A stretch of DNA of 64,000 nucleotides from Olsenella uli DSM 7084 (lineage in GTDB: Bacteria; Actinomycetota; Coriobacteriia; Coriobacteriales; Atopobiaceae). This document shows, piece after piece, positions 33,972-39,171 of the stretch. The first letter of the stretch is position 1. Each line of letters starts with the position of its first letter. A program made the translations under genes and the position numbers. The stretch spans positions 977,186 to 1,041,185 of the forward strand of contig NC_014363.1 in the NCBI RefSeq assembly GCF_000143845.1, written 5' to 3'. The notes below the pieces were generated by a model. It was not told the DNA's origin. It saw only the letters and a list, made by a program, of their open reading frames with translations, and did not search any database.

Positions 33972-34406
33972 ATGCAGGCGGGCGGAGAAGGGGCGCAGGA
34001 GGGCCGCACGGGTGCCGGACGGCGGACGCGCGGCATGGGCGCCCGCGAGGTCGGCGCCGAGGGAGAGCGACTGGCCACGACCTACCTCAGGCGGCGTGGG
34101 TACGAGGTCCTGGAGCGCAACTGGACGTGTACGGCCGGTGAGGTGGACATAGTCTGCGAGATCGAGGGTACCGTCGTGCTGGTCGAGGTGAAGACGCGCC
34201 TTTGGCGGGAGGTGGAGGACGGCCCTTTGCCGGAGCTTGCCGTGGACGGTAGGAAGCGGGCCCGTTACCGCAGGCTTGCGCTCGTCTATCTCTGCACCCA
34301 TCCCGAAGTCGAGGCGGTCCGCTTCGACGTGGTGGCGATAAGCATCGTGGGAAGGCGCTGTGCCCAGGTCCACCACCTCATGGGCGCCTTCGCCTGGGAT
34401 GACTGA
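33972..34406 (+). CDS. YraN/UPF0102 family nuclease-fold protein
   Basis: Small protein with a restriction-endonuclease-like core: GAEGERLATTYLRRRGYEVL followed by GEVDIVCEIEGTVVLVEVKTR, which carries the expected acidic and Lys residues. The role is not established; the family often neighbours rnhB and comM, as here. ATG 33972 has a gggaggc SD. The stop overlaps the comM start (TGATG). About 144 residues, with a 30-residue Gly/Arg-rich N-terminus. Confidence 0.88.
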   Translation: MQAGGEGAQEGRTGAGRRTRGMGAREVGAEGERLATTYLRRRGYEVLERNWTCTAGEVDIVCEIEGTVVLVEVKTRLWREVEDGPLPELAVDGRKRARYRRLALVYLCTHPEVEAVRFDVVAISIVGRRCAQVHHLMGAFAWDD

Positions 34407-35902
34407 TGGGTGCCTCCGTAGCCGTCCAGACGGCCATACTGCACGGGATGGAGGCCCTGCCCGTGAGGGTCGAGGTGTCCACTTCCGCAGGCATTCCAGG
34501 CATCACGATGGTAGGTCTGCCCGATTCCGCCGTGTTGGAGTCCCGTTCGCGCATTCGCTGCGCCATACGAAACAGCGCCCTCAGGATGCCCCGTGAGCAC
34601 ATAACCGTGAACTTCGCACCCGGAGAGTTGAGAAAGTCGGGCACGGGGCTCGACCTGCCCGTGGCGGTGTCCATCCTTTGCAGCAGCGGGCAGATGCCGC
34701 TGACTGGTCTCGATTCCTGCCTCTTCGTCGGCGAGCTGGCGCTCGAGGGCGACATACGGCCCACGCGCGGCATGCTCGCGTACCAGAGGCTCGCGGAGTC
34801 TATGGGCCTTGCGCTCGTCTGCTCTCCGGAATCGGGCTGCCTGGGATCCTACGAGCGCTGCCTGGGCGTAGCCGCGCTGGGAGAGATCGCCCGTGGCGTC
34901 CCTTGGGTCACCCGTCACTGCAGACGTCCGAGTCCCGCCGACGACCACTCGTGCGAGCATGCTCCGGCGACGCTCGACTTCGCCGACGTCGTGGACCAGG
35001 AGTCCGCGAAGCGTGCCATCGCCATTGCGGTCGCAGGTGGCCATGGCCTGCTCATGGTGGGTCCTCCCGGGTCGGGGAAGACCATGCTCGCCCGGAGGAT
35101 ACCACGCATCATGCCCCCACTTTCCCCAGCGGAGAAGGACGAGGCCCTGCTCGTTGCCTCGGTCGCCGGCCGGGACGCGACCGAGCTGCAGCTGGGCAAC
35201 AGGCCCTTTCGCAGCCCCCATCACTCCATCTCACTCGCTGGGATGATAGGTGGCGGAAGGCCCGTGCTGCCAGGTGAGGTGACCCTCGCCCACAGGGGCG
35301 TGCTGTTCCTCGATGAGCTCCCCGAGTTTGCGTGCAACGTCCTACAGTCACTGAGGCAGCCCCTCGAGGAGAGGTGCGTGAGGCTTATCAGGGCGGAGGG
35401 CGCCTTCGCCTTTCCCTGCGACTTTCTCTTCGTCGCTGCGGCAAATCCCTGCCCCTGCGGCTACCTGGGCGATCCGGTAAGGCCCTGCAGCTGCAGCGAG
35501 ACGAGGGTGGCCCAGTACCAGTCGCGCATAGGCGGCCCGCTCATGGATCGCATCGACGTGAGGGTGGACGTGGCGCGTCCCGATGCGTCGAAGGTGATAG
35601 GCGGCCGCGAGGGGCTCTCGACGGAAGACATGACGCGCATGGTGCTGCGCGCGAGGGAGCGTCAGGAAGGGAGAGGCGATGCCGGCGCACTCAACTCCCG
35701 GCTTCCCCTCTCCCAGATTTCCCTGGAGGCGGACGCGCGCTCCGTGCTCGAGCGGATGTCGGCAAGGCTTGCGCTCGGCGGTCGCTCGATCGTTCGCGTC
35801 GCACGCGTAGCCCGAACGATTGCCGACCTCGAGGGAAGTGACCGCGTCAGGCGAGGCCATGTCGTAGAGGCCTGCATGTACCGAGACCGAAGTGGGGTAT
35901 GA
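34406..35902 (+). CDS. comM: ComM/YifB family Mg-chelatase-like AAA+ ATPase
   Basis: Hexameric helicase-like ATPase implicated in branch migration during natural transformation. An N-terminal Lon/S5-like domain (LPVRVEVSTSAGIPGITMVG, GTGLDLPVAVSIL) precedes the AAA+ domain with Walker A GPPGSGKTML from residue 219 and GVLFLDELPEF as Walker B. A Cys-rich CPCGYLGDPVRPCSC segment is family-typical. Length 498 residues. It lies immediately before dprA, another competence gene. Confidence 0.94.
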   Translation: MGASVAVQTAILHGMEALPVRVEVSTSAGIPGITMVGLPDSAVLESRSRIRCAIRNSALRMPREHITVNFAPGELRKSGTGLDLPVAVSILCSSGQMPLTGLDSCLFVGELALEGDIRPTRGMLAYQRLAESMGLALVCSPESGCLGSYERCLGVAALGEIARGVPWVTRHCRRPSPADDHSCEHAPATLDFADVVDQESAKRAIAIAVAGGHGLLMVGPPGSGKTMLARRIPRIMPPLSPAEKDEALLVASVAGRDATELQLGNRPFRSPHHSISLAGMIGGGRPVLPGEVTLAHRGVLFLDELPEFACNVLQSLRQPLEERCVRLIRAEGAFAFPCDFLFVAAANPCPCGYLGDPVRPCSCSETRVAQYQSRIGGPLMDRIDVRVDVARPDASKVIGGREGLSTEDMTRMVLRARERQEGRGDAGALNSRLPLSQISLEADARSVLERMSARLALGGRSIVRVARVARTIADLEGSDRVRRGHVVEACMYRDRSGV

Positions 35903-36811
35903 CGATGGTGGCACGAGGGGGGCGCTGGGCGCTCGGGAGGAAGGACGAGGGATATCCCCCCCTCCCTCGAGCTCCTCGAGGACCCTCCAGAGGAGCTGAG
36001 GGGCATTGGCGACCCCTCGGCGCTAGGGGCGCCTTGCATATCGATCATCGGGGCCCGCAGGGCGACGCCCTATGGCATTGCCGTCGCGGAGATCGCTGGC
36101 CGCGTCGCAGCCGAATGTGGCCTGACGGTCGTGTCGGGAGGTGCCATGGGCTGCGACTGCGCCGCCCTGCGTGCCGCAGCCAGGTCCGGTGGCCGCTGCG
36201 TGATCGTGTCCGGATGCGGGGCGGACCGCGTGTACCCCGCAAGCTCGTCGGACATGTTCGAACGGGCCGCGGCAGGGGAGGGTGCGGTCATATCGCTCGA
36301 GCCTTGGGGGCAGGGACCGAGGAGGTGGGCCTTCCCCAAGAGGAACCGCATCATCGCCGCGCTCTCGAGATGCGTGCTGATCGCCGAGGCGGGGGTGAGA
36401 TCGGGAACCATGAGCACCGCAGACGCTGCGGTCGAGATGGGGAGGACGCTGTATGCCGTGCCCGGCTCGATCTTCTCGCCGCAGTCTGCCGGCGCGAACA
36501 CCCTCATCGCCAACGGGGCCGCCATCATCTCTTCCGAGGTCGACCTGGAGGTCCGGATATCGTATGACTACGGGTGCCTGCGGTTCGTGGGCGCCCAGGG
36601 ACCGACCCCATCCGGCAGGATACTGTCTGCACTGACCGCGAACCCCATGCGCCCCGACGACCTTGCCCGCGCGCTGGGGGAGGACGTGGTCCACGTCCTC
36701 AACGCGTTGAGCGACTACGAGCTCCAGGGTCTTGTGGTCCGCCTGCGCGACGGCCGCTTCTCCCCGTCAGCGCCCGCGTTCGAGGGGCAGGGTACAATCG
36801 CTACCGGGTAA
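35899..36811 (+). pseudogene. dprA: dprA (DNA processing / recombination mediator protein), frameshifted at a C7 tract
   Basis: DprA loads RecA on incoming single-stranded DNA in transformation. ATG 35899 overlaps the comM stop as ATGA and reads to DEGYPP, the usual start of the DprA Rossmann region. The homology then continues in the next frame (LELLEDPPEELRG, ISIIGARRATPYG, FPKRNRIIAALSR, AVPGSIFSPQSAGANTLIA, C-terminal winged helix). The break is at seven Cs, 35956-35962; removing one C would join a 303-residue protein. In the second frame there is no good start before GTG 36131. It could be a real mutation, a phase-variable tract, +1 frameshifting or a sequencing error. Confidence 0.8.
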
Positions 36812-36841
36812 CGGTGTCACATGCGTGCGGGGGAGTCCAAG

Positions 36842-38167
36842 GTGCCAGACGAAGTCACAGTCATCGGAGGGGGTCTCGCGGGGAGCGAGTGCGCGCTTCA
36901 GCTTGCGAGCCGGGGCGTACGGGTCACGCTCTTTGAGCAGCGCCCGTTCCATAGCTCACCCGCACACCACGGTGCGGGCTTTGCCGAACTCGTGTGCTCG
37001 AACTCCCTCAAGTCGACGCGCCACGACAGCGCGGCGGGTCTCCTCAAGGAGGAGATCACCAAGATGGGCTCCTTCCTCATCGCCCTTGCGCACAGGGCCT
37101 CCGTTCCGGCCGGGGGTGCCCTTGCGGTCGATCGTGGTGCCTTCACGGACCTTGTCACGCAGGCGATCGAGGGCGAGGGGAACATATCCGTCGTACGGGA
37201 GGAGGTCACGACGATTCCCGGGGGCATGGTCGTCGTCGCAGCCGGGCCCCTCTGCTCCGACGCCCTGTTCGGGGACCTCTCTCGAAGGCTGGGGGCCGAG
37301 TCGCTCTCCTTCTACGATGCCGCGGCGCCCATCGTCGACGCGCAGACCGTCGATCGCTCCATCGCCTTCGTGCAGTCACGCTATGCCGAGGGAGGGGGAG
37401 ACTACCTCAACTGCCCCATGGACCGAGACGAGTACGATGCGTTCTACGACGCCCTCGTCGCCGCCAAGCGCATCGTCTCCAAGGACTTCGAGCAGAAGGA
37501 CCTCTTCAATGCCTGTCAACCCGTCGAGGAGGTCGCCCGAACGGGACGCGACTCGCTGCGCTTTGGCGCCCTCAAGCCCGTCGGTCTCACGGATCCCAGA
37601 ACGGGACGGCGTCCCTGGGCTGCCGTGCAGCTGCGCGCCGAGAACGTAGGGCGTACGGCGTATAACCTCGTGGGGTTCCAGACCAATCTCAGCTGGGGCG
37701 AGCAGAAGCGCGTCTTCCGGATGATCCCGGGTCTTGAGGAGGCGGACTTCTTCCGCTATGGCGTCATGCACAGGAACAGCTTCGTCGACGCGCCCCGTGT
37801 CCTAACGGATACCTTTGCCATACCCCATACGCAGGTCAGACTTGCGGGCCAGATCACCGGTACGGAGGGCTACGTCGAGGCCATCGCCTCGGGCCTGCTC
37901 GCCGCGCTCAACACCATCTGCGACATCCGCTCTGCCGAACACGTCGACCTCCCGGCGACGACTGCCCTGGGCTCGCTCGTGAGGTACGCGACCGACCCGG
38001 CAACGTGTCCCTACCAACCCATGCATGTCAACTTCGGCATCATCGCTCCCTTGGGGAGGGGGCGTCTCGGTAAGCGGGAACGCTACGGGGCCTATGCAGA
38101 CAGGGCCGCCCGGGACATGGACACCTACCTCGCAAGTCGTCCCGACCTCTTCGGCCGGGCAAGGTGA
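36842..38167 (+). CDS. trmFO: tRNA (uracil-54-C5)-methyltransferase TrmFO (folate/FAD-dependent)
   Basis: Makes ribothymidine 54 in the tRNA T loop using methylene-tetrahydrofolate. The FAD-binding N-terminus is VIGGGLAGSECALQLASRG, followed by HHGAGFAELVCSNSLKS, both typical. NFQTN-type region FQTNLSWGEQKRVFRMIPGL and GQITGTEGYVEAIASG also fit. GTG 36842 has a strong gggggag SD 6 nt upstream and is preferred to ATG 36821. Length 441 residues. The stop overlaps the recombinase start as GTGA. Confidence 0.94.
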   Translation: MPDEVTVIGGGLAGSECALQLASRGVRVTLFEQRPFHSSPAHHGAGFAELVCSNSLKSTRHDSAAGLLKEEITKMGSFLIALAHRASVPAGGALAVDRGAFTDLVTQAIEGEGNISVVREEVTTIPGGMVVVAAGPLCSDALFGDLSRRLGAESLSFYDAAAPIVDAQTVDRSIAFVQSRYAEGGGDYLNCPMDRDEYDAFYDALVAAKRIVSKDFEQKDLFNACQPVEEVARTGRDSLRFGALKPVGLTDPRTGRRPWAAVQLRAENVGRTAYNLVGFQTNLSWGEQKRVFRMIPGLEEADFFRYGVMHRNSFVDAPRVLTDTFAIPHTQVRLAGQITGTEGYVEAIASGLLAALNTICDIRSAEHVDLPATTALGSLVRYATDPATCPYQPMHVNFGIIAPLGRGRLGKRERYGAYADRAARDMDTYLASRPDLFGRAR

Positions 38168-39141: not shown

Positions 39142-39171
39142 CTGGCATGTCTACCCCCCCCCTGATATACT
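39142..39171 (+). promoter_or_regulatory. Probable promoter and leader of rpsB-tsf
   Basis: CTGGCA (39142-39147), 18-nt spacer and TATACT (39166-39171) preceded by TGA. The leader to rpsB is about 135 nt and contains a cccgggg/cccggg stem-forming stretch (39235-39260), compatible with an S2-type autoregulatory leader, though this is not proven by sequence alone. Confidence 0.5.

Follow-up and report, generated by a model that had tools for sequence, protein, structure and literature searches.

A seven-cytosine tract at the break in the dprA reading frame of Olsenella uli DSM 7084

Strain-level frameshifts in competence genes and sequencing errors in reference genomes both have precedent. In Haemophilus influenzae, comM was reported to be frameshifted in strain R2866 and pilD in strain 22.1-21, and by the same account the competence-gene frameshifts did not explain the transformation phenotypes (PMC2689351). 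For the Deinococcus radiodurans reference, many discrepancies are described as having later been put down to sequencing error (PMC11219805). A third relevant system concerns translation, as the sequence CCC-C is described as slippery in Escherichia coli, with +1 shifting of up to 1% when it lies beside the start codon (PMC4519876).

Here we describe dprA of Olsenella uli DSM 7084, an oral bacterium; the gene lies in a 64,000-nucleotide stretch of contig NC_014363.1 (positions 977,186 to 1,041,185; hereafter the window, whose own numbering is used throughout). In other species DprA loads RecA on incoming DNA. Literature searches pairing Olsenella with dprA found nothing, and those pairing Olsenella with natural transformation returned no paper with Olsenella in its title.

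The dprA reading frame and the C7 tract

The features of the locus, all on the forward strand, are these.

34406..35902, +, comM, a YifB family Mg-chelatase-like AAA ATPase, intact (TIGR00368, 446 bits; cut-off 362)
35899..35955, +, 5' end of dprA, 19 frame-1 codons counted from the ATG, encoding a homologue of the relatives' N-terminus (RWEL...DEGFP)
35956..35962, +, C7 tract, site of the frame change in dprA
35957..36811, +, remainder of dprA in the other frame, 284 codons plus stop
35899..36567, +, frame open from the ATG, 222 codons, about 200 of them out of frame, without a family match
36131..36811, +, first ATG, GTG or TTG of the dprA frame (a GTG) to the stop
36821..38167, +, an open frame which we take to be trmFO, starting 9 bases past dprA

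The ATG of dprA at 35899 overlaps the TGA stop of comM at 35900-35902 (ATGA) and, as an earlier note on this DNA had described, the coupled frame reads MTMVARGG...DEGYPP up to the run of seven cytosines at 35956-35962, where the DprA reading moves to the next frame. There is consequently no single open frame from the start codon, the tract displacing the start by one base relative to the frame of the remaining gene, which extends to 36811. Beyond the tract frame 1 continues as an arginine-rich, unrelated product to a stop at 36567, and this 222-codon product had no match in Pfam or NCBIfam at E ≤ 0.001; the frame from 35957 stays open over 284 DprA residues. Skipping one C yields 303 residues, as had been calculated: removal of one base from the 913 leaves 304 codons, the last being the stop. 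The dprA frame contains no ATG, GTG or TTG upstream of 36131, and a restart at the GTG there would remove the 58 residues that follow the tract, the IIGARRATPYG motif among them.

A run of six guanines at 35917-35922, 33 bases before the C7 tract, is a second slippage-prone tract within the N-terminal codons of dprA. It was considered as the site of the break and rejected, as RWAL...DEGYPP downstream of it remains in frame 1. The relatives read in a single frame through (R)WEL...(D)E(G)(F/Y)P...LYG, which places the break at the C run itself rather than the G run.

Preservation of dprA and comparison with relatives

The stretch from 35957 matches solved DprA structures (e.g., 3maj and 3uqz). 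Its Rossmann-like core was recognized by PF02481 (DNA_processg_A, 180 bits, cut-off 29.6, E 4.5e-53) and its C-terminal winged helix by PF17782 (DprA_WH, 34 bits, cut-off 22.9), and the 284-residue part after the tract (P0001) scored 166 bits against TIGR00732, below the cut-off of 191. The codon score is +0.18 per codon for the dprA frame after the tract vs. -0.18 for frame 1, and based on these scores and the PF02481 E-value the pattern is not due to chance.

An alignment with 20 of the 24 relatives' loci (L044, L049, L054, and L055 being omitted) has 87 columns in which at least 90% of the relatives agree; DprA of O. uli differs at 6 of them, and the other sequences at 0-12. Its identity to L037 is 63.7%, compared to 62.0% for the sister clade, and its identity to the outgroups is not below that of the sister clade, L045 excepted (53.7 vs. 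58.2). Both codon score and GC3 are similar to those of comM. The Y15R substitution in the LYG motif was considered as a second lesion and rejected, as LRGIG also occurs in L009 and L018. The search for further inactivating changes, which the earlier note had named as the sign of an ordinary pseudogene, revealed none, and its view that dprA has no other defect holds: both Pfam domains were recognized, conserved positions have been retained as often as expected, and codon usage is unremarkable. The gene thus has one lesion, no further decay and intact relatives, as in a recent frameshift pseudogene; since the decay of an old pseudogene is absent, a sequence error would look no different.

All 52 relatives' dprA loci examined (sets of 22 and 30, not counting L054 and L055, which stop short of the site, and with some species present twice, L023/L037 and L020/L045 having identical residues) encode an aromatic residue and a proline within a single frame at the tract site, where C runs reach at most five bases in every one of the 52. 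The tract is therefore lineage-specific, and conserved programmed frameshifting or family-wide recoding is unlikely. An in-frame upstream ATG is present in all 22 of the relatives' loci read for this feature, and PF02481 was found in 58 of the 60 relatives, including all 45 with genomes of good quality. A search of viral contigs for the flanks of the tract, separated by five to eight bases, gave no match.

Sequence quality, homopolymer runs and other competence genes

Seven-base C or G runs occupy 142 overlapping positions in the genome. Among 75 C/G runs of at least seven bases that we examined (drawn from 100 listed of these positions, nine listed tracts being left out), 55 lie inside genes and all are read straight through, 20 lie between coding segments, and a frame break was found only at the dprA run. 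Eleven of these 20 runs (ten plus L065) were read in six frames and all proved to be gene boundaries, overlaps or gene starts; seven (L092, L098, L100, L112, L115, L116, and L117) were judged by codon-usage map alone, by which L112 has a coding segment on neither side; and two, the dprA tract and a C9 run before rpsB, lie within the window.

In a survey of 234,177 bases and 238 coding segments, dprA was the only clear broken start. Eight segments were flagged, six of which merely extend beyond the codon-usage segment and two of which appeared to have no start; one of these is dprA, and the other (53647) was rejected as a broken start, having a TTG just beyond the threshold. Generally poor sequence is accordingly unsupported, as the 55 in-gene runs are in frame and a single start is broken in 234 kb. 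The genome report describes a 454-based draft, coverage of 90.5x by 454 and 211.8x by Illumina, polishing, a stated error rate of less than 1 in 100,000 and 56 pseudogenes (PMC3035265). That rate would allow up to ~20 errors in 2.05 Mb and so leaves room for a residual error, although the survey and the polished assembly favor a real mutation.

The C9 run (39154-39162) is situated between the genes xerC and rpsB, where it forms part of the 18-base spacer within a promoter-like pair (CTGGCA at 39142, TATACT at 39166-39171). Of the 12 relatives' loci listed, 11 carry a -10-like hexamer (TATACT or TATAAT) upstream of rpsB and the other has TACTAT, but C or G runs of at least six are absent there from all 12. 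Changes in the length of the C9 run would alter the spacer of this predicted ribosomal-protein promoter.

The other competence genes examined are open. The earlier note was right that comM is intact, and PF01078, PF13541, and PF13335 all score above cut-off in its product. comEC (798 codons) adjoins comEA (229 codons), and both are open; ComEC scores 177 bits against TIGR00361, slightly below the cut-off of 190, and above cut-off for PF03772, and ComEA is above cut-off for TIGR00426 and below it for TIGR01259. The Tad-type ATPase gene is also open in a Tad-like cluster (PF00437 above cut-off, TIGR03819 below). As comM, comEC, comEA, and the Tad ATPase gene are open, the break in dprA is that of a single gene rather than part of a wholesale loss of competence genes.

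Two further observations concern these genes. The Tad/Flp-type pilus-like cluster, with its open TadA-like ATPase gene, lies in the same genome (L122, 3403-12324) and possibly provides an uptake pilus that substitutes for a ComG-type pilus. ComM of O. uli is more diverged than the proteins of neighbors: 19 of 171 conserved columns are changed, the most among 21 sequences and mostly conservatively, and its identity to L037 is 55.2% vs. 63.4% for the sister clade, being lower also against L042 and L045.

Origin of the break and comparison with known systems

We think that the dprA frame was probably broken recently by slippage of one base in the sequenced strain, an ordinary loss of frame. Slippage at a run of six cytosines, probably at replication, would have produced the C7 tract at codons 20-21 and separated the ATGA-coupled start from the remainder of the gene; with the start cut off, ribosomes would make the unrelated 222-residue product and hardly any DprA. 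We infer that replication added one base, that the change is real in the strain, and that DprA-dependent loading of RecA on incoming DNA would be lost or strongly reduced. The earlier note had called the transformation functions "switchable or recently lost"; recent loss fits the lack of decay, and the switch found no positive support. Overall, a recent slip looks likelier than a residual sequencing error, and a conserved genetic switch looks unsupported.

That the assembly retains a homopolymer error and the dprA of the strain is intact is a less likely explanation, though the main rival. The gene shows no decay elsewhere, the draft was based on 454, a platform weak at homopolymers, and the D. 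radiodurans reference provides a precedent; conversely, Illumina polishing at 211.8x, the in-frame reading of 55 of 55 in-gene tracts examined and the finding of no further clear broken start within 234 kb speak against it. It is improbable that the run is a contingency (phase-variable) tract whose length differs from cell to cell and switches DprA and transformation on and off, even though a homopolymer early in an otherwise kept gene is suggestive. Seven is short for such a tract, no C run longer than five occurs at the site in the relatives examined, and C/G runs of seven or more are common in the genome, with those in genes otherwise in frame; a literature search combining dprA, phase variation, and homopolymeric tracts found nothing. 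Also improbable is a deliberate off-by-one arrangement in O. uli, in which DprA would come only from ribosomes or cells slipping at CCC-CCC-C, thereby limiting transformation with the uptake genes intact.

The proposal of the earlier note that ribosomes shift +1 at the tract also fared poorly. It is very unlikely that the break is tolerated through low-level slippage, programmed or leaky, of tRNA-Pro on CCC-CCC-C that yields some DprA. The slipperiness of CCC-C in E. coli favors this idea, as does GAGGGATAT before the C run, an arrangement that we take to resemble the prfB layout loosely. However, the run is at codons 20-21 rather than codon 2, the slip site is not conserved, and the GAGGG is plain Asp-Glu-Gly coding sequence as in the relatives. 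Moreover, the 0-frame codon after the tract, CTC, is common (47 per 1000, the commonest of four leucine codons checked), and thus neither a hungry nor a stop codon occupies the 0-frame A site after the slip. Position, codon, and lack of conservation speak against a programmed +1 shift, although a leaky one is chemically possible. Least credible of all is initiation of DprA in its own frame at a rare codon such as ATC 35954 to give a slightly shortened protein: the purine-rich GGGAGGAAGG lies ~10 bases upstream of this codon, but the dprA frame lacks ATG, GTG or TTG before 36131 and all 22 relatives read have an in-frame ATG upstream.

A real slippage mutation would make the type strain of the type species naturally deficient in dprA while its uptake genes are intact, a point of interest for studies of gene exchange in the Olsenella group; an error would call for correction of the reference record. 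In either event dprA cautions against inferring a switch from one homopolymer.

Compared with the systems described above, as far as the accounts cited describe them, the O. uli locus resembles the H. influenzae frameshifts in that one transformation gene is broken in one strain and the rest of the pathway is kept (PMC2689351), but differs from comM and pilD in being another gene, in another phylum, known from one strain. As in the D. radiodurans BAA-816 reference, an otherwise intact gene appears broken (PMC11219805); unlike that reference, the O. uli sequence had undergone Illumina polishing. With +1 frameshifting by tRNA-Pro at CCC-C in E. coli it shares a slippery proline run and the needed +1 direction (PMC4519876), whereas the O. 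uli run lies away from the start codon, is not followed by a slow or stop codon and is not conserved.
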